The notes beneath the pieces are model-generated. The model made no database searches, was not told the origin of the DNA, and saw only the letters and a list, made by a program, of their open reading frames with translations. Source: a virus. From it: 20,840 nt of DNA. This document shows positions 1 to 17,710 of this stretch, piece by piece. The translations under genes and the position numbers were made by a program. Numbering within the stretch: the first letter of the stretch is position 1; every line of letters begins with the position of its first letter. Location of the stretch: the IMG/VR virus record IMGVR_UViG_3300049810_000294, positions 1 through 20,840 of that record, one strand, 5' to 3'.

Positions 1-995
1 GCATCTTTTGCAAAATACTTGGCTGGTTGAGTTCCCTTTTTATCTTTAATATCTTTATCTTGTTTTTCACTTGTCGGAACACAGTTAGGAACATCCTTGC
101 CATTCTTTTTCTTCATTCCAACTTGTTTGAAACCATTCCAACAGTCTTCTGATAGTTCTAACTCATATAACCACTTACGATGTGTCTTGCCATCTTCTTC
201 TGCAAAGGTAACATAATTTGTTCCTCTACGAATTACTTTACCAGAAACTCCAGAATAACTATCAGTAACTTCTTCACCAATGTTTAAAATTTCACCTTTG
301 ATGTATAAATCTCTAAAAACATCTTCATCAGTTACTTCCATAGAAGTTGGAAGAAATGATTCTCTGATACCCATTGCTTTACGAACATCTTTGAACAAGT
401 TTTTGCCGTTAGTAAACCCTTTTGGAAGTCCAGATTCAAAACCAGCTTTCTTAATCTTTCCTCTTTCGTCATATTCATTTTCGTATCTATTTTCAGATGC
501 TGCAGCTCTCATCTTAGATGCAGACATACCTTCAACACCTTCTGCATCTGGGTCTCTTTCTCCAGCAGATATAACTTCAATACTATCAAAGTTATAAAAA
601 CCATGTCTACCTTCTACATTGTTATATTTTGTCAATAGTGATTTGAATTCGTCAACTCTATCAGAACCAACGACCATAATCACATTTTTAAATCCTTTGT
701 CAAACAACTCAGTTGCAATCTCAAACACATTTCTTTGTTTGGATGCAATAATGTTTTTCTTATGTTTTGGAAACATTGCTCTCATATATGCAATCTTCTT
801 TGCATGTGGAAGAGGGTCTTTTTTTGGATTCTGTGAATGTGAAGGATATACAAAATACTTTGCACCATTCGACTTCGCAACAGACGCCAACTTCATGATT
901 AATTTCTCATGCCCAGTAGTGGGTGGATTGAATCTACCGAAAGTAAACACGGCAACACTTTCTCGTGCTTCAACTATTTCTGAAAACTTTTTCAT
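1..995 (-). CDS. HIGH-type nucleotidyltransferase (cytidylyltransferase-like), 3' end outside window
   Basis: The reading frame is open from the ATG at 995 to the window edge (331 residues seen, no stop). Residues 20-29 read GRFNPPTTGH, the HIGH-like nucleotide-binding motif of the cytidylyltransferase/NMN-adenylyltransferase superfamily. A VVGSDR segment (108-113) and SASKMR (158-163) match the later ISxxxxR-type motif, so the catalytic domain fills about residues 12-170. After about residue 205 comes a separate beta-rich region and a Cys-containing tail (SEDCWNGFKQVGMKKKNGK), a kind of tail I recall in other marine T4-like phage proteins. Family knowledge: such enzymes transfer a nucleotide to a phosphorylated substrate; the substrate here is unknown (NMN, a sugar phosphate or other). 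The start ATG directly follows the stop codon of the upstream gene. The N-terminus MKKFSEIVE resembles a T4 capsid-targeting peptide with an I-V-E cleavage site, shared with the three genes upstream, so packaging in the head is inferred. Confidence 0.8.
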   Translation of the reverse strand, partial: MKKFSEIVEARESVAVFTFGRFNPPTTGHEKLIMKLASVAKSNGAKYFVYPSHSQNPKKDPLPHAKKIAYMRAMFPKHKKNIIASKQRNVFEIATELFDKGFKNVIMVVGSDRVDEFKSLLTKYNNVEGRHGFYNFDSIEVISAGERDPDAEGVEGMSASKMRAAASENRYENEYDERGKIKKAGFESGLPKGFTNGKNLFKDVRKAMGIRESFLPTSMEVTDEDVFRDLYIKGEILNIGEEVTDSYSGVSGKVIRRGTNYVTFAEEDGKTHRKWLYELELSEDCWNGFKQVGMKKKNGKDVPNCVPTSEKQDKDIKDKKGTQPAKYFAKD

Positions 996-1385
996 TTAAT
1001 TATTACCTTGTTTAACTTGTTTCAGTCTTTCAACTTCAGCCTTTTTTAATTTAACCATCATCTTCTTTGCAATCTTTTGAATCACCATATGTTTTTTTGA
1101 TGTAATCCTGTTATCTACCTCTATCCTAGCAGCAGGGGGTAACTCTGCATATTTTTTTGCATCCAATCCAGCAAACTTCTTTAGAACTAACATCTTTGCT
1201 TTCTTTAATGCTCTCTTGTGCAACATATCTGGTGTTGCAAGTTTATTTTTCCTTCGTGCAACCTTTGCTTTAAAAGCAGAAGACTTAGTAAGCTTCTTCA
1301 TACGCAACGCCATTTTTCTTCTCTGTTGCATAGAGACCGCTTTCTTCTCGTTCAATTCGAGCATTAATTCTTCAAACTTCTTCAT
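996..1385 (-). CDS. Very basic conserved phage protein, possible capsid-internal protein
   Basis: I do not recognise a functional family. The 129-residue product is extremely rich in Lys and Arg (for example QQRRKMALRMKKLTKS and KRALKKAKMLVLKK) and predicted helical throughout, consistent with binding DNA or RNA. Similar small basic proteins are recurrent hypothetical genes in marine T4-like phages (from memory). I chose the ATG at 1385 because it makes an ATGA overlap with the upstream stop; a TTG nine bases earlier (1394) could extend it by three residues. The N-terminus MKKFEELMLELNE carries L-N-E, the (L/I)-x-E form cut by the T4 gp21 prohead protease. With its basic charge and late-block position, a T4 internal-protein-like role is plausible but inferred. 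Confidence 0.72.
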   Translation of the reverse strand: MKKFEELMLELNEKKAVSMQQRRKMALRMKKLTKSSAFKAKVARRKNKLATPDMLHKRALKKAKMLVLKKFAGLDAKKYAELPPAARIEVDNRITSKKHMVIQKIAKKMMVKLKKAEVERLKQVKQGNN

Positions 1386-2623
1386 CTGTCCCAAGCCTTC
1401 ACTGCTGTAAAATTGTTAAAACTAAATTCCATTCTATCTACTAACTTAACTGCACCACCACTGACTCTATCAATGGCAACATACCCTTCGGCATCCGTTA
1501 CTTTGAAACCATTCTTTGTTCTAATGAATGTTCCTATTTGCTTAACAGTATTTAGTTTCTTTACAACACCCATTTTTGCCTCTACGATATGATTTTGAAA
1601 GGCAATTATTGCGTCTAAGTTCTTAATATGTTTCTTTAATTCACGAATAACTTCTTTTTTTGTATTCTCAATTTCTGCCTTTTTGGCAGGAGTTTTGATA
1701 GAATCTATTCTTTTATTATATGTTCCCTCTACCCATGTCAAATATCCCTTTGCATGAGCAGTTGTATTAGTAATCTTTTGTCCTTCTCTAACCTTGCTAT
1801 TATTATAGGTTTTAAGGGACGCACCAGCAAGTTGATTAACAAAAGTGTTATTTTGTATATCCAAGAACTTCTTCAATAAAGAAGAGTTAATCTTTCTAAA
1901 TGTCTTGCCTGCGTTAGATAAATGTTTTGTAACTTCTTCTGTTTCTTTATCATTCATTGTTGCAGAACCAGATAAGTCTTTATAGGATGCATCATCCATC
2001 CAAATAGAAGATGTTGGTTTCATCTTAGATGTGTCTGCACCGAAAGATGCTTTCATATCTTGTAAAGCACTTCCTTTATATGTGGTATGCCAGACAACAC
2101 CAATCTTTGATTTGTTCATTTGTTTACCAAGGTCACTATTCACTGGAACTGCATATACAATTGTATTTGGTTGGAAAGTGTAATAAGACTCCCCATCAAT
2201 TGTTTCAGTTTCCAAGTCTGTGAACATAAGGTCACCCTGTAATACTCCAGTAATTCCCAACTTAGGAAACTCTGCAAATGCAACCTTAAACTTAGCATTC
2301 AAGTCACCAGAAGTATCTGCATCAATATCTGCATTTGACTTATAAAGTTTTGGTGTTGCATTAAATACTGATTTCTTTGCAACAAAAAACTTACCATCAT
2401 CTGGGTCAATACCAGCAAAGATTGCTGGAGCACCATCCCACTTAACAGTCATATTGATAGAAGAACGAGAGGAACCAGCAAGCATATCTCTTAGGGAACG
2501 AACAAAATTAATAGATGCTCTACCACCGTCAATTCCGTAATTTAGAATCTCATCTTCGATATGTTCAAGGTGTAGGTTTTTACCACCCTTATCTTCTTTA
2601 AGAAATGAATTAAAATTTAACAT
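1382..2623 (-). CDS. KxDG nucleotidyltransferase / ligase-like phage protein
   Basis: The 413-residue protein has KWDGAPAI at 61-68. This matches motif I (K-x-D-G) of the covalent nucleotidyltransferases (ATP-dependent DNA and RNA ligases, capping enzymes), where the Lys becomes adenylylated. A following GVLQGDLMF segment (126-134) and IGVVWHTTYKG (174-184) sit where the later ligase motifs would be, though they match only loosely. Close relatives are common in marine T4-like phages as an uncharacterised family (I believe DUF6267, from memory). Substrate is unknown: RNA or DNA end joining or an AMP-transfer reaction would fit. It starts one base into the upstream stop (TAATG) and overlaps the downstream start (ATGA), so translation is coupled. 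Its N-terminus MLNFNSFLKE ends in L-K-E, resembling a capsid-targeting peptide. Confidence 0.75.
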   Translation of the reverse strand: MLNFNSFLKEDKGGKNLHLEHIEDEILNYGIDGGRASINFVRSLRDMLAGSSRSSINMTVKWDGAPAIFAGIDPDDGKFFVAKKSVFNATPKLYKSNADIDADTSGDLNAKFKVAFAEFPKLGITGVLQGDLMFTDLETETIDGESYYTFQPNTIVYAVPVNSDLGKQMNKSKIGVVWHTTYKGSALQDMKASFGADTSKMKPTSSIWMDDASYKDLSGSATMNDKETEEVTKHLSNAGKTFRKINSSLLKKFLDIQNNTFVNQLAGASLKTYNNSKVREGQKITNTTAHAKGYLTWVEGTYNKRIDSIKTPAKKAEIENTKKEVIRELKKHIKNLDAIIAFQNHIVEAKMGVVKKLNTVKQIGTFIRTKNGFKVTDAEGYVAIDRVSGGAVKLVDRMEFSFNNFTAVKAWDR

Positions 2624-4137
2624 TAAATGAAACCCTCAATATCTTTTGGAATAGATGCCTTCACCTTTGAAACGGTAATATTAAGAAAACCAAATAGTGC
2701 CTCATACATTTTAGACCCCATATTTTTAATTTTATCAAATACAACTTTAACCTTTTCTAGAATTCTTGTCAATAGGTTATTGAACCATATTTTAATATCT
2801 TTACCCATTTTCTTTAGTTTACCAAATGCCTTTTTTACAATGGCAAATTCGTCTAGTTGATGAATATCTTCAACCAACATATTACAAATCTTATCGTTTA
2901 TAATTTCTTCTCTGATTATACCAGCAAGAGTTGATGTTGTTTCAAATGTTTTATTATCTTCCGTCAAACCAAGTCTTAATGTTGAATAAGGATTCCCTCC
3001 ACCAGACTTGTATGCCGCATATACTTTTACTTTAGATGAAATACCAATTACTTTGGAACCAACAGATGGGTTTTCTTTTAGTCCAGAACTCTTACCATCT
3101 GAAGTCACTTCAATAAACTTAGATACTTTACCGTTGTCTGCATTAAATTCCATACAAACAGATGCCGCACATGTTTTATCTGAGAACTTCTTATAACCAG
3201 ACATTGCCTCATAAGTATACCACTTTAGAAATTCTGGTTGTCTTTCAAAATTCAAATGTTTTTTTATTTCTTTGTTTAAATCGGTGTGAAATTGTTGAGT
3301 TTCTGTAAACTGTGCAACGGCAGCTGCATCTTCTGGTTTTAATTGTCCTTTGGTTTTCTTTGCCATATCAGACAATGCACCCACAGTATGCTTAGTCGCA
3401 ATCTTTTGGAAACCCTCTTCAATCATGTTGAGAATTTTTTCCATCTCTGGAGTAACACCATTAGAACCCATATATTCAAGTGCCGCATTATATGTTGCAA
3501 CGGTTTCACCTTTTGCACCAGATGCCAATTGTGAGCCACCAGCCTTTTTAAGTGAAATGTTATATTGTTTATTGAACATATCAGTCTTTGGTGTTCCATC
3601 GGAACCACCATGTCCAATCCAGAAATGTGATAGGTTTGCTTTTGATTTGCCTTTACCAAACTGAGTCATTGGTGATTTACCAATCTCTTTGATAAATGCA
3701 GTTGCAATCTTTTCACCAGTTTCATTATGCCAATCATCAAACTTTTCTGACTCTGTATCTGCATCAGAATCAAATCCTTCTGCACCGCAAAGACGGTTAT
3801 AATTTGATGTAATAATGTTTTCCCAATCTGCACCAGAAGCAACACCAGCACCTTGAGTTGAGAATCCATTCTCAATCTTGTCGATTGCTAGTGCAGTAAG
3901 TGATTTACCATATGTGCGTGTTAGTGCATTCTGAAAATCTTTATTATTCTCTGCATCTCTACGATTCAGAAAACCAATAAGTTCAGAATTTGGGTCAACT
4001 GGTGGGAGCTTCTTGCCTTTTACGTCAACAAGTTCCCCTTTGACTGCTTTATCTATGAATGCGACTTTGTTATTACGTTTAAAAACGTCTGCATAACCCA
4101 TCGCACCTTCTGATAAGGAATGTTTAAAACTCTGCAT
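2623..4137 (-). CDS. Possible PD-(D/E)XK-type nuclease, first gene of the late block
   Basis: The 504-residue product is not a family I can name. Residues about 100-205 have the look of a restriction-like core: a helix with E106 (DWENIIT), then IGHGGSDGTPKTDMF with D186, then the strand YNISLKK with S195-x-K197, a spacing like PD-(D/E)XK with Ser in place of the acidic residue. The last 90 residues are amphipathic Lys-rich helices (IVKKAFGKLKKMGKDIK and later). The ATG at 4137 has an AAGG element about 6 nt upstream, and a perfect T4 late promoter lies 38 bases upstream. The N-terminus MQSFKHSLSEGA ends in L-S-E, like a gp21-cleaved capsid-targeting peptide. An injected nuclease or host-takeover protein is one reading; an ordinary structural protein is the alternative. 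Confidence 0.7.
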   Translation of the reverse strand: MQSFKHSLSEGAMGYADVFKRNNKVAFIDKAVKGELVDVKGKKLPPVDPNSELIGFLNRRDAENNKDFQNALTRTYGKSLTALAIDKIENGFSTQGAGVASGADWENIITSNYNRLCGAEGFDSDADTESEKFDDWHNETGEKIATAFIKEIGKSPMTQFGKGKSKANLSHFWIGHGGSDGTPKTDMFNKQYNISLKKAGGSQLASGAKGETVATYNAALEYMGSNGVTPEMEKILNMIEEGFQKIATKHTVGALSDMAKKTKGQLKPEDAAAVAQFTETQQFHTDLNKEIKKHLNFERQPEFLKWYTYEAMSGYKKFSDKTCAASVCMEFNADNGKVSKFIEVTSDGKSSGLKENPSVGSKVIGISSKVKVYAAYKSGGGNPYSTLRLGLTEDNKTFETTSTLAGIIREEIINDKICNMLVEDIHQLDEFAIVKKAFGKLKKMGKDIKIWFNNLLTRILEKVKVVFDKIKNMGSKMYEALFGFLNITVSKVKASIPKDIEGFI

Positions 4138-4174: not shown

Positions 4175-4182
4175 TATTTATA
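4175..4182 (-). promoter_or_regulatory. T4-type late promoter (TATAAATA)
   Basis: The minus strand reads TATAAATA, an exact match to the T4 late-promoter consensus used by the gp55 sigma factor with gp45 sliding clamp. It lies in the only intergenic gap of this region, between the gp41 stop (4194) and the start at 4137, so transcription should start about 30 bases upstream of that gene. It separates early replication genes from the four-gene block at 4137-1. Confidence 0.75.
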
Positions 4183-9821: not shown

Positions 9822-12346
9822 CCGAAAAAATCCTCCAGTGTTGTTTGTGTCCCATAACTCCTGTCGATAGTCCAACCAATTTGATTCATAATAAAAGTGA
9901 GAGGTTCTACAAAAGCCTTCTCGAATTGTTTATCATAGTCTAAATACTTGTGAATGTCAAGTTCTTTTGGTAACTTTGTAATAAAAGAGATAACATTCGA
10001 TTGCATAGGGTTAGGTGTTCTCATATTAAGGAACTTGATTTTGTCACCCTCATTAATGAGAGGGTATTTGTTAGTCAACCGTTTCTGATTAGAGAAGTGG
10101 TTGTAAAGGATTGCACCCTTGACATGCATTGGTGTTCCAGATTGGAAGATGTTAGAACCACTACTCCACTTCTTAATACCATTTACAGAACGAGGGAATG
10201 CAATCTCCTCTGGAGGCAGGGCCATAAACTCTTTGCGAAACTCTTGGATAAAGTCGTTTACATCCTTTTCTGTTCCAGACATAATAACCTTTAGTGCATC
10301 CTTAATCTTCTCACGACATGGGGCAGGGGTTGAAGACTTGACAGCCTCAATACCCATAATCTTTAGTTTAGGTTCACCATAACGAACCCCCTCAACATCC
10401 CACGCATTGAGAATATATCTTTTCTTTGCCGTCCAGATACCTTTGTCTGCGATAACTTCACGTTTCATCTGCATCTTTTGGGCATAGGCATTCATAGTTT
10501 GAGCAAGAACTTGATAAGACTTATCAATAAAAGGTTCCACCTTCTGTGAAGCCACTGCGTCCAAAAAGTCAACGACTTTCTGGGTATACTCGTCTTCCGA
10601 TAAGTCAGTTCGATTTTTAAACGACTCACTAACCAACCTGTCAAAAGTGATATAAACCGAATCTGTGTCAGACGCAATGATGTAATCATGCGATTCTGTG
10701 TTAAGTATTTTATTAAGGTATTCATTCAATCTCCTTTCAATCCAACGGATAGAGAGTTGGCCAGAGGTGGTAATCCCTTCGGCAATCCTCAAGTCATAAT
10801 AACGAAACCACTCATTACCAATCGCACCATAAGCAGAGTTCAATGAAATCTTACGAGCCATCTGGATGTTAGTGAACTTCGAAACATCTTTTAGATATTT
10901 AGCATCCTTTGTATCTTCATATTTTTGTTTGGCGTCCAACATCTTCTTTTTGTAAATGGTTCTATCATTATACATCTCTTGCATCATCTCAGGCAAGAAC
11001 CCAAGTTCATGTTTTGAGAACACAGCACCGTTTGGTGTTGCGGTAAAATCTGTTGGAAGTTTGGACATATCCATCTCACCATCAATAATCTTGTCGATTG
11101 CATCAGAACCCAAGTTGAGGTTTTTTTCAAACAGGGTCTCTGGAGAGATGTTGTATTGCATAATAAGGTGTGGATATAGAGAGTTCAAGTCAAAAGAAAG
11201 AACCCACTTGTGTTGTCCAACTTGTGGTTCCTTTACAAATGCACCGACATACTTCTCACCCTTACTCTTGTTTGACTTCTTCTGAGGGATGACAATCTTT
11301 TTACTACGCAAGTGGTTGTAGATAAGAACGTCCCAATACTTAACAGAAGTAAAAGCATCAGACATATTCACCTTGGCCTCATAGGTCATAGTCAACAGCA
11401 AGTCGATTAGTTTCATCTTGTCATCAAGTCTATCAACTAGTTCAACGTCTGTGATGTTGTAGTCAATAAAGGACTGATAGTCTTCTGTATACCACTGTCG
11501 AAAAGTCTCATAAGGATTCTCATCCTTACGTTCACCCAACTCAACAAAGGCAATGTGGTCAAGACGATATGACTCTTGATTTTGGTAAGTAAACTTCTTA
11601 TATAATTGTAGATAGTCAAGGTCAGTAACACCAAGGATGTCATAAGTCTGGTCTTTACGTCCATAACCAGAATTCACCCAACGAGAGTTTACGATACCCC
11701 AAGGAGAAAGTCTACGAACAGACTCTTCACCAAGAACCTTTTGAATACGGTTACAGATGTATGGAATATCAAAGAATTCAGTGTTCCAACCAGTTACAAC
11801 GTCTGGGTGGTCTGCATCCCACCAACCAAGGAAACGAGCAAGCAACTCTCGTTCATTAGGACAATGGATGTATTTTACATCATCTCTGCTTGTTGTATAA
11901 TCATGCAATCCCCAAACAATGATTTCACCAGTAGAGTGGTCTTTGATAGTAATAGACAACATAGGTTCCTCAGCCTTGTCTGCATAAGGAAATCCATTTT
12001 CACACTCAACCTCAATATCAATAGTAATTTTTTTGATAAGGTCAGAGTCGAATTGTATTTGTCGAGGATACTTTTCAGAAAGATAGGTATAAGGAAACTG
12101 TGCCATGCCATAGACAAGCCACGGTTGACTTTCGTATTGTTCTACAAAAGCCTTTGCCTCCTTGATAGAAAGAAACTTCATAGGATTGACATTCTTGCCC
12201 TCCAAGGTCTTCCAACCAGTTTCTTTCTTCACAGGGACATATAATGTCGGTTCGTATTTTACTCGTTTAGTGTATCGTTCCCCTTTGGAAACACCACGAA
12301 CCAACAAGTCGTTACCCCACTGGGCAACATGTGTATAAAAATCCAT
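9818..12346 (-). CDS. 43: Family B DNA polymerase, T4 gp43
   Basis: This is the replicative polymerase with 3'-5' proofreading. The 842-residue product (T4 gp43 898) has Exo I TIDIEVE (D110, E112), Exo II NTEFFDIP (188-195) and Exo III YNITDVELVD (296-305), then polymerase motif A SFDLNSLYP (D386), motif B KISLNSAYGAIG (499-510) and motif C SDTDSVY (D560, D562). The C-terminus TTLEDFFG resembles the sliding-clamp-binding peptide that tethers gp43 to gp45. All catalytic residues are present and no inteins or splits are seen. The ATG at 12346 is preceded by AAGGTGG and by a perfect sigma70-type promoter, so it is the first gene of an operon running to gene 41. RegA, encoded upstream, represses gp43 translation in relatives. 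Confidence 0.97.
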   Translation of the reverse strand: MDFYTHVAQWGNDLLVRGVSKGERYTKRVKYEPTLYVPVKKETGWKTLEGKNVNPMKFLSIKEAKAFVEQYESQPWLVYGMAQFPYTYLSEKYPRQIQFDSDLIKKITIDIEVECENGFPYADKAEEPMLSITIKDHSTGEIIVWGLHDYTTSRDDVKYIHCPNERELLARFLGWWDADHPDVVTGWNTEFFDIPYICNRIQKVLGEESVRRLSPWGIVNSRWVNSGYGRKDQTYDILGVTDLDYLQLYKKFTYQNQESYRLDHIAFVELGERKDENPYETFRQWYTEDYQSFIDYNITDVELVDRLDDKMKLIDLLLTMTYEAKVNMSDAFTSVKYWDVLIYNHLRSKKIVIPQKKSNKSKGEKYVGAFVKEPQVGQHKWVLSFDLNSLYPHLIMQYNISPETLFEKNLNLGSDAIDKIIDGEMDMSKLPTDFTATPNGAVFSKHELGFLPEMMQEMYNDRTIYKKKMLDAKQKYEDTKDAKYLKDVSKFTNIQMARKISLNSAYGAIGNEWFRYYDLRIAEGITTSGQLSIRWIERRLNEYLNKILNTESHDYIIASDTDSVYITFDRLVSESFKNRTDLSEDEYTQKVVDFLDAVASQKVEPFIDKSYQVLAQTMNAYAQKMQMKREVIADKGIWTAKKRYILNAWDVEGVRYGEPKLKIMGIEAVKSSTPAPCREKIKDALKVIMSGTEKDVNDFIQEFRKEFMALPPEEIAFPRSVNGIKKWSSGSNIFQSGTPMHVKGAILYNHFSNQKRLTNKYPLINEGDKIKFLNMRTPNPMQSNVISFITKLPKELDIHKYLDYDKQFEKAFVEPLTFIMNQIGWTIDRSYGTQTTLEDFFG
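9832..9836 (-). promoter_or_regulatory. Ribosome binding site deciding the methyltransferase start
   Basis: GGAGG on the minus strand, ten bases before the ATG at 9821 and inside the last codons of the polymerase gene. It is one of the best Shine-Dalgarno matches in the window and favours the 9821 start over the upstream in-frame start at 9875. Confidence 0.7.
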
Positions 12347-12402: not shown

Positions 12403-12620
12403 GAGAAAAGTGGTAATTGTTCCTCAGATGAGAAGTGTTTATCAATCATATCAATAATATCTTGAGAGTGTGCAATCTTTGCCAGTTCACCTTCTACTGC
12501 TTCTGCAATATCGGGATGTTCCCCAATACCAGCAGGATTCTTTAGGTAGATACCAACATTTGCTTTATGTAGTGCAATTTTACCTTCATTGTGTTTTTTG
12601 ATTGCTTCGAGTAGTGTCAT
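12399..12620 (-). CDS. Small conserved phage protein of unknown function
   Basis: The 73-residue product is predicted all-helical with a central IYLKNPAGIGEHPDIAEAVEGEL segment. Small proteins with a similar PxGIGEHPD core occur in marine T4-like phages as hypothetical genes (from memory), with no known function. The ATG at 12620 (MTLLEAIKKHNEGK) has AAAGGG seven bases upstream; ATGs at 12626 and 12644 would lengthen it by two or eight residues. It overlaps the ATP-grasp gene by 35 bases. The next promoter's -35 box overlaps its last codons, so it ends the regA-side operon. Confidence 0.65.
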   Translation of the reverse strand: MTLLEAIKKHNEGKIALHKANVGIYLKNPAGIGEHPDIAEAVEGELAKIAHSQDIIDMIDKHFSSEEQLPLFS

Positions 12621-13701
12621 TATCATTCCCTTTCCAATGTTCACGATTCATAAAAGTGATAAGAATCTCTTTTGTTATACTTCGTTTCTTATCTTTAATT
12701 AGAGGCTTTGATGCGGCACTATTAAATACTGCCTCAATCCCCATAAGGCCAGGTGTTGAATTAACCTCAATCATATAAGGTTTTTCCTTTTCCCTGTTCT
12801 TTGCTGGAATAAAGTCTACTCCAACCACTTGTCCATCAACAGCCTCTGCGGCTCTTAATGCTTCAGTTCTTTCTAATTCTGTCAATTCATGAACCTCTGG
12901 TTCAGAACCTTGTGATACGTTGCTTCTGAAATCCTGTTCAATAACTGGTCTTTTTATTGCACCAATCACTTCTCCAGCAACAATAATCACTCTTACATCA
13001 TAATCAGTTTTTATATACTCTTGTAAAATAATATCTACATACTGGTCTTCTCTATATAACAGTTGTATTACACTGTGTAGAGATTTAAGACTTTCAATCC
13101 ACATAACCCCAATACCTCTAGAGCCAGTAGATGTTTTTAAAATCATTGGAAACTTATTACCTAATTTTTCTGCGGCTGCATCTGCACCTTCGGCATGACG
13201 AACCAATACAGTTTTAGGTGTATTAAAATCATTCGTATGAAAAACAACTTGGTTATACCACTTATCACTACAAATATCATGACATACTGTAGAATTAATA
13301 ACAGTGTAACCTTTTTCTTCTAAATTCTTTACAGTTACCCACCAAGAACGGTTACCAGTTTTTACTGTTGAACCCATCCCTCTAGCCATAATAAGTGTGT
13401 CTTTGGGATTAATCTTGAAGGGTTTGTCGTATTTTGCATCCGTCTTCATTGTAGGCAAATCTGCACTACCATCTTCTCCAACTGGAAAAGAATACACATT
13501 AAAACCAACATCATCTGTTGGTTCCATATACATTCCACTAAACTCACCCAAGTGACATGAGATACCCATAGACTTCGCAACCTTGCGAATCATTGGCCCA
13601 GTTTCGTTTGGGTCATGAGGGTCATCATGAGACAGCACCAATAATTTATATGGTTTGTCTTTAGGTTCCTCAGTAATAAATTTAGAAAATGTTTGTGCCA
13701 A
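12586..13701 (-). CDS. RimK-like ATP-grasp ligase
   Basis: The protein is an ATP-grasp carboxylate-amine ligase of the RimK type; RimK adds glutamates to the C-terminus of ribosomal protein S6. Visible elements (numbering from the TTG at 13701, 371 residues): MILKTSTGSRGIGV with the ATP-binding K189, ILQEYIKTDYDVRVIIVAGEV, VVGVDFI with D296, and MIEVNSTPG with metal-binding E312 and N314. Family role is forming a peptide or amide bond using ATP; the phage target could be a host ribosomal or a phage structural protein, which the sequence does not show. No ATG is available near the 5' end: TTG at 13701, one base past the regA stop and with GAGAG upstream, is preferred to TTG at 13725. The N-terminus TFSKFITEE resembles a capsid-targeting peptide with I-T-E. 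It overlaps the downstream orphan. Confidence 0.83.
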   Translation of the reverse strand: MAQTFSKFITEEPKDKPYKLLVLSHDDPHDPNETGPMIRKVAKSMGISCHLGEFSGMYMEPTDDVGFNVYSFPVGEDGSADLPTMKTDAKYDKPFKINPKDTLIMARGMGSTVKTGNRSWWVTVKNLEEKGYTVINSTVCHDICSDKWYNQVVFHTNDFNTPKTVLVRHAEGADAAAEKLGNKFPMILKTSTGSRGIGVMWIESLKSLHSVIQLLYREDQYVDIILQEYIKTDYDVRVIIVAGEVIGAIKRPVIEQDFRSNVSQGSEPEVHELTELERTEALRAAEAVDGQVVGVDFIPAKNREKEKPYMIEVNSTPGLMGIEAVFNSAASKPLIKDKKRSITKEILITFMNREHWKGNDNDTTRSNQKTQ

Positions 13702-14107: not shown

Positions 14108-14490
14108 TTTTTTCCACCTTTATTCAAACTATTTTTAATAGCCTTTATTTGAGAATCATTTAATATAGAGAGAGCAGACTTGGCCTTTTCATTACTATAT
14201 CCATAATACTCTTTTATAAACTCTAAGTCTTTCAACTTACTCGCTTTCACCCAAGGAGCATATCGCTTCCTAGACCTAATACTATTTAGTAAAAAATCAT
14301 ATTGAAGCTTAGAGTCAAGGTGGTGTCTCTGATTGATTTCATTGACTAACATAATGGTATCATTAAATGGTGCAAGACACTTATTCATAATAAAGGAAGA
14401 ATACTTTTTCTCCCATACAGGGTCATCCCCATCCATTAAGTTTTCTTTTGTTTCGTTGATGGATTTTAGATAATCTTTTAACTCATACAT
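14104..14490 (-). CDS. 62: Clamp-loader small subunit gp62
   Basis: gp62 joins four gp44 subunits to load the gp45 clamp on DNA. The 128-residue product resembles the shorter gp62 of marine T4-like phages rather than T4's 187-residue protein: MYELKDYLKSINETK, WEKKYSSFIMNKCLAPF, LQYDFLLNSIRSRKRYAPW and YYGYSNEKAKSALSIL. RKRYAPW corresponds to T4 GKRYGKW. The ATG at 14490 has a GGGG element eight bases upstream, whereas the ATG at 14526 would add 12 Cys-containing residues inside the upstream gene with no homology. Position between gene 44 and regA supports the call. Confidence 0.88.
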   Translation of the reverse strand: MYELKDYLKSINETKENLMDGDDPVWEKKYSSFIMNKCLAPFNDTIMLVNEINQRHHLDSKLQYDFLLNSIRSRKRYAPWVKASKLKDLEFIKEYYGYSNEKAKSALSILNDSQIKAIKNSLNKGGKK

Positions 14491-14846
14491 TCTATAATCC
14501 CCTTTATAGGAACAAGAACACCCCATGAAGTATTATTATCTCCACCACGAACTCTTTTATGTTTGTATTTCAAAACAATTTCACGCATGTCTTTAACTGT
14601 TACTGTCATGTTGAAACAGAAGGTATCACCCTTGTAGAAGTTAATAGACCAATACTTTGCATGTGTTGTGCAGATTCCACTAGGTTTACCCCTAGATTCT
14701 GTCTCCACAAAATGATTACCAGTTTTTACCCAAAGGTCACGTTCAGACTTAACCTCTGTTTTATCACCAGCAACAATGTCTGCGACAACCTGTTCTCCAA
14801 GTTGTCCCCATTCTAAATCATGTTTAAAGTCTGAGTTGTATTTCAT
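14478..14846 (-). CDS. Possible PD-(D/E)XK nuclease-like protein between genes 44 and 62
   Basis: The 122-residue product is a hypothetical gene seen at this place in marine T4-like phages. It shows a helix GEQVVADIV, then KTEVKSERDLWVKTGNHFVETE with E31-x-K33, then a Cys/His-rich SGICTTHAKYW. That order (acidic helix, E-x-K strand, strand with aromatic residues) resembles small PD-(D/E)XK resolvases or restriction-like nucleases, but I cannot confirm it. It overlaps gene 44 by ATGA and the gene 62 start by 13 bases, so it is translated together with the clamp loader. A structure-specific nuclease or a clamp-loader accessory would fit. Confidence 0.62.
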   Translation of the reverse strand: MKYNSDFKHDLEWGQLGEQVVADIVAGDKTEVKSERDLWVKTGNHFVETESRGKPSGICTTHAKYWSINFYKGDTFCFNMTVTVKDMREIVLKYKHKRVRGGDNNTSWGVLVPIKGIIECMS

Positions 14847-17702: not shown

Positions 17703-17710
17703 TATTTATA
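17703..17710 (-). promoter_or_regulatory. T4-type late promoter upstream of Hsp20
   Basis: TATAAATA on the minus strand, exact match to the T4 late-promoter consensus, inside the gap between the DUF932 and Hsp20 genes. It predicts late transcription of the chaperone gene. Confidence 0.7.

Follow-up and report, generated by a model that had tools for sequence, protein, structure and literature searches.

In phage T4, the first 10 residues of the internal protein IPIII are enough for packaging, as summarized in a review of Black's work (PMC9026906). According to the mutagenesis of IPIII, targeting depends mainly on residues 4 and 7 and processing on residues 8 and 10, and gp21 cleaves after L/I-x-E (PMC9026906). 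In cyanophages, several groups have reported an NMNAT-like enzyme in the virion, leaving undecided whether it represents cargo or contamination. Orthologues of the gene 4 described below were identified by mass spectrometry in purified virions of S-SM1 (T4-GC190), S-SCSM1 (ORF91), S-SZBM1 (S-SZBM1_140) and S-CREM2 (ORF154), and the authors of the proteomes caution that carry-over is possible. T4 capsid-targeting sequences (CTSs) and virion NMNAT-like enzymes are each already known; in the open literature, we found no paper linking the two, none on DUF6267 and none describing CTS leaders in marine T4-like phages, cyanophages included.

Here, we analyzed 20.8 kb of sequence (the window, i.e. the whole stretch of 20,840 nucleotides) from a T4-like marine virus that has not been cultured. 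Among sequenced phages, Methylophilales phage Melnitz EXVC044M is the closest to it, with the same gene order and 74% identity in DUF6267. Behind a gp41-like helicase gene, four late genes extend on the minus strand from position 4137 to <1 and form one operon, in which neighbouring genes overlap by 1–4 nt or abut. The features of this operon are the following:

4175..4182, minus strand: T4-type late promoter TATAAATA, kept 5' of gene 1 in 14/14 distinct loci
2623..4137, minus strand: gene 1, 504 aa, possible PD-(D/E)xK-like nuclease (E106, TPKTD186, SLK198)
4108..4137, minus strand: capsid-targeting-like leader of gene 1, MQSFKHSLSE, then GAM
1382..2623, minus strand: gene 2, 413 aa, DUF6267 (PF19782, E=3e-106), ligase-superfamily-like motifs
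2594..2623, minus strand: capsid-targeting-like leader of gene 2, MLNFNSFLKE, then DKG
996..1385, minus strand: gene 3, 129 aa, strongly basic protein
1347..1385, minus strand: capsid-targeting-like leader of gene 3, MKKFEELMLELNE, then KKA
1..995, minus strand: gene 4, 331 aa, cut by the contig end, HxGH-type (TTGH) nucleotidyltransferase, NMNAT/cytidylyltransferase-like
969..995, minus strand: capsid-targeting-like leader of gene 4, MKKFSEIVE, then ARE

All four proteins open with M-x-x-F-x(2-6)-(L/I)-x-E, in line with the shared N-terminal pattern of the original prediction. In the window, only these four ORFs carry such a leader at a plausible start codon, and two further matches are internal methionines (in the DNA polymerase gene and a gp46-like gene). 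Homologues were obtained from about 95 IMG/VR loci (about 90 related contigs) found with three queries, their starts were reassigned by alignment to reference proteins, and the pattern M-x2-[FY]-x1-8-[LI]-x-E was scored on distinct proteins. The leader is present in 15/15 homologues of gene 1, 67/73 of DUF6267, 36/36 of gene 3 and 59/66 of gene 4; pooled over these four unrelated families, it closes in (L/I)-x-E in 177 of 190 distinct homologues. The control, a DnaB-like helicase encoded by the neighbouring gene, carries it in 0/35 cases, and 23 of about 1,900 internal methionines (about 1%) match, mostly within gene 4. In cyanophage-type loci, the leader is found on the nucleotidyltransferase (58/58), on DUF6267 in 0/60 and on the protein at the gene-1 position in 0/35. 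The cyanophage DUF6267 proteins begin just past the point where the leader ends in the window homologue, and residues 1–17 of the gene 2 model, which comprise the leader region, have low pLDDT.

The leader is 9–13 residues long, compared with the roughly 10–19 expected of the T4 internal-protein class, with Phe or Tyr at position 4 in 180/190 homologues and mostly F/Y/L/I at position 7. Gene 1 of the window has Ser at position 7 and therefore agrees only in part with this position-4/7 pattern. Overall, the conserved columns are 4, 7, 8 and 10. Among regex-selected leaders, Phe4 and the Glu of the site are invariant and show solely synonymous changes (328 synonymous and 0 non-synonymous pairs for Glu10 of DUF6267) and positions 2, 3, 6 and 9 vary; here the filter itself demanded F/Y4, L/I and E, and unfiltered counts show the same preference. 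The leader is thereby confirmed as real and under selection, beyond chance.

The columns conserved in the marine leaders are those controlling targeting and cleavage of IPIII, which points to the T4 signal. A weight matrix trained solely on marine leaders from related contigs ranked T4 IPII, IPIII and IPI at places 1, 2 and 3 among the 202 ORFs of a 100 kb stretch, and in leave-one-family-out models the T4 internal proteins ranked 1–3, or 1, 2 and 4. Among 652 phage proteins, these latter models placed each window protein in the top 7 to top 26; the matches are weaker for genes 1 and 2, whose scores were only moderate with their own family left out. In addition, the Melnitz genome has homologues of gp21 and gp22, and in Melnitz and two cyanophages the major capsid protein keeps L-x-E, the site of the T4 gp21 cut in gp23. 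For Melnitz genes 15–18, the predicted cleavage would fall right behind FLSE, YITE, ELIE and EIIE.

The late promoter proposed in front of the block was recovered as well. The minus-strand TATAAATA at 4182–4175 lies 38 nt ahead of the ATG of gene 1, and all 14 homologous loci have it upstream of gene 1. Its occurrence in the AT-rich window (2 seen vs 1.56 expected) is not above chance, and it is therefore the positional conservation that makes the promoter convincing. The octamer is found upstream of DUF6267 in 18/58 loci and of the helicase in 0/36, and there is none before gene 3 or gene 4 in the homologous loci; in Melnitz, it also stands ahead of structural genes including gp18, gp22 and gp23. 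From its sequence, the operon is predicted to be expressed late. The second TATAAATA of the window, at 17703–17710, is located just 5' of an Hsp20 gene, likewise in Melnitz, and this position fits the idea of an Hsp20 serving head assembly.

The encapsidation of the four proteins, as originally predicted, stands in part: the targeting leader is strongly supported, and detection in virions applies only to gene-4 homologues in other phages. Of the 219 S-CREM2 proteins, the four with the highest leader scores, namely the nucleotidyltransferase gp154, the APH-like kinase gp14, gp136 and the SAM hydrolase gp6, are all among the 52 proteins listed for the virion (Fisher p=0.003). Such an association between leader and virion was found in one of the two usable proteomes. 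S-SZBM1 has the one complete virion list in which leaderless neighbours could be checked; its 30 proteins include the leader protein 140 and lack 141 and 142, which are leaderless and encoded in the same operon. Also absent from this list are S-SZBM1_191 and _192, the top two of the model with excellent leaders, where a detection limit is possible due to their small size (105 and 165 aa). Leaderless neighbours detected in virions (S-SZBM1_139, S-CREM2 156 and 160) indicate that the leader is not the sole packaging route.

Several individual leaders in these two phages are worth listing. In S-CREM2, gp6 begins with MKDFDSFLEE (L012:3837-5081) and gp14 with MKRFDAFLTE (L012:10579-12846), and the further virion proteins gp13 and gp15 have a degenerate form of the leader (MKDLHSFLTE, MNFSEFNE). 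S-SZBM1_191 and _192 (L016:22311-23125) carry the near-T4 leaders MKSFKSFLSE and MKTFKQYITE and are located between gp16 and gp17. A simple leader regex turned out to be too loose as a virion predictor (6 virion vs 5 non-virion proteins in S-CREM2). Similarly, when proteins were ranked solely by their BLOSUM similarity to the T4 leader, 4 of the top 5 were virion proteins with no significant Mann-Whitney test, and an overall shift in this score is not expected since leader proteins are a minority class.

Leader conservation, the recovery of the T4 internal proteins, the agreement with the mutagenesis columns, the virion association, the late promoter and the L-x-E of the capsid protein make packaging by a T4-type capsid-targeting sequence well supported. 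As four genes bear the T4 head-loading label and the relatives of one of them are found in virions, these phages probably carry a small enzyme kit in the particle alongside the DNA.

With respect to cargo identity, the nucleotidyltransferase assignment of gene 4 was corroborated by a PF01467 match above the cut-off. Conserved FGRFNPPTTGH and SASKMR represent the motifs of HxGH nucleotidyltransferases, and a profile search of the PDB gave sub-threshold matches to MJ0541/NadR NMNATs. The C-terminal part of gene 4 (window 1–150) contains a cysteine motif, CWNGFKQVGMKKKNGKDVPNCVP, common to Melnitz 18, S-CREM2 160 and S-SZBM1_139, of which the latter two are virion-detected; the stretch with CWNGFKQVGMKKKNGKDVPNCVP matches several PHROG families of unknown function. 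The C-terminal motif CW..YKQVG..K..GK.VPNC of gene 4 was weighed as a further packaging tag and set aside, as the proteins that have it are too few for a test.

For gene 2, predicted to be ligase-like, all motifs are present and lend moderate support, and the fold matches are weak. Motifs I, III, IV and V follow in ligase order (K61-W-D-G64, QGDL, E379-G-x-V, K393-L-V), with KWDG, QGDL, EG(F/Y)VA and KLV invariant or nearly so among 44 sequences. A Pfam ligase family match was absent, and the model (mean pLDDT 76) gave no match in a fold search of the PDB; in the viral library, DUF6267 relatives came first, followed by weak hits to RNA ligases at E=0.01–0.2. We consider gene 2 with moderate confidence to be similar to the KxDG (DNA/RNA ligase) superfamily. 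The nuclease proposed for gene 1 retains its PD-(D/E)xK-like motif, with E106, D186 and S-x-K198 invariant in 14 homologues, and nothing beyond the motif. No Pfam or other family matched gene 1, and its AlphaFold model is poor (mean pLDDT 49.5), giving no fold match in a search that is meaningless at this confidence. PDB searches with the profiles of genes 1 and 2 gave nothing significant. Gene 3 is, as predicted, a strongly basic protein of 129 aa.

We regard it as likely that the locus is a late operon of head cargo, with T4 internal-protein-type leaders and with enzymes delivered to the next host. One alternative accepts that the proteins are prohead-targeted and processed and places their activity in head assembly or DNA packaging and not in the next host. 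Such roles are known for T4 IPIII and core proteins (PMC9026906), a set of nuclease, ligase and basic protein would suit DNA handling, and the late timing would be the same. However, T4 IPI, with the same leader type, and Alt target host defence or host enzymes after delivery into the cell. In addition, the leader cargo varies by lineage (SAM hydrolase, kinase, zeta-like P-loop protein), which would not be expected of a conserved assembly function. An assembly role appears rather unlikely.

The restriction of virion detection to gene-4 orthologues, together with Ser7 of window gene 1 at a T4 targeting position (PMC9026906), would also suit a scenario in which gene 4 alone is packaged and the leaders of genes 1–3 are non-functional or route the proteins to degradation in the core. 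Against this, these leaders are position-specifically conserved in 15/15, 67/73 and 36/36 homologues, and we consider the scenario improbable. Even less credit is given to the view that the leader is some other docking motif or a gene-fusion relic and that the nucleotidyltransferase in virions reflects carry-over of an abundant late protein. Carry-over is conceded by the proteome authors, and the leader proteins S-SZBM1_191/192 are missing from the virion list, but the model of marine leaders recovered the T4 internal proteins blind, four independent cyanophage studies detected the nucleotidyltransferase in virions, its leaderless neighbours from the same operon are unlisted in S-SZBM1 virions, and the leader closes in the same L-x-E as the site of the major capsid protein; altogether, this explanation seems very improbable.

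According to the favoured reading of head cargo delivered to the next host, each protein would be made late, bearing at its N-terminus a capsid-targeting sequence of 9–13 residues of the kind found in T4 internal proteins. Through aromatic residue 4 and hydrophobic residue 7, the leader would attach the protein to the scaffold core of the prohead, and a gp21-type protease would cut it after (L/I)-x-E, as in T4. Following the T4 example further, the mature enzymes would remain in the head with the DNA, enter the next host together with it and act there ahead of phage gene expression. By analogy to T4 IPI and Alt, a role in early host take-over or genome protection may be proposed. Speculatively, the task would most likely be to protect and prepare the entering genome and the host, with the nuclease-like, ligase-like and basic proteins processing DNA ends or nicks and the nucleotidyltransferase perhaps contributing nucleotide or NAD+ chemistry.

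Strong leaders are also seen elsewhere in related phages. In Melnitz, they occur on gene 118 (L003:15855-16523), a zeta-toxin-like P-loop protein starting with MKTFAELQE, and on gene 27 (L002:21306-21701), a 131-aa protein starting with MKNFKNHIAE. The DUF6267 protein of the cultured Stenotrophomonas phage DLP_6 starts with the leader MMKFTQFLAE. Phage C48C1 (L231) has three small leader genes 3' of the nucleotidyltransferase (11028-11300, 12598-12801 and 14265-14582) with MITFKKYLEE, MKKFTEIRE and MKKFKQYIDE. Besides that, S-CREM2 gp12 (L012:7704-10313), annotated as Cas9, is HNH-like with a leader-like LRFASFMAEAA at residues 17–27; the Cas9 name is doubtful.

The proteins that bear this leader include the nucleotidyltransferase, the DUF6267 ligase-like and nuclease-like proteins, the SAM hydrolase, the APH-like kinase and the zeta-like P-loop protein. 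We lean slightly towards the broader view that a single portable leader serves the marine T4-like phages (Kyanoviridae and relatives) and that its cargo is gained and lost per lineage, amounting to a lineage-specific kit of injected effectors predictable from sequence. The T4-type label on exactly these NMNAT-like proteins offers a mechanism, and a sequence test, for the question of cargo versus contamination. If true, genome sequences would reveal which proteins are injected by some of the ocean's most abundant phages, and many genes now labelled 'hypothetical' or 'auxiliary metabolic' would be better read as effectors acting ahead of phage transcription.

Among known systems, the NMNAT/cytidylyltransferase of cyanomyovirus virions is a homologue of gene 4, and its gene neighbourhood is shared in S-SM1 and S-SZBM1; in these loci, however, the neighbouring DUF6267 and gene-1 proteins are without the leader, and a shared leader is not mentioned in the proteome papers. 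The ejection proteins of the giant phages phiKZ and SPN3US are likewise head cargo cut after Glu by a gp21-like protease, but their propeptides are mostly much longer, with the motif S/A-x-E and other cargo. The T4 ADP-ribosyltransferase Alt is a head-packaged, gp21-processed enzyme that enters with the DNA; it is an unrelated enzyme, and its N-terminus, MELITELFDE, does not belong to the F4 type and was missed by the leader model. In comparison to T4 IPI, IPII and IPIII, the marine cargo consists of larger, enzyme-like proteins (DUF6267, NMNAT-like, possible nuclease) encoded in one operon conserved across marine phages, and its leader cleavage and delivery would follow the T4 example. Shared with these internal proteins are the 10-residue leader with an aromatic residue at 4, a hydrophobic residue at 7 and (L/I)-x-E at 8–10, the late genes, and the T4-type prohead protease present in the relatives of the window.
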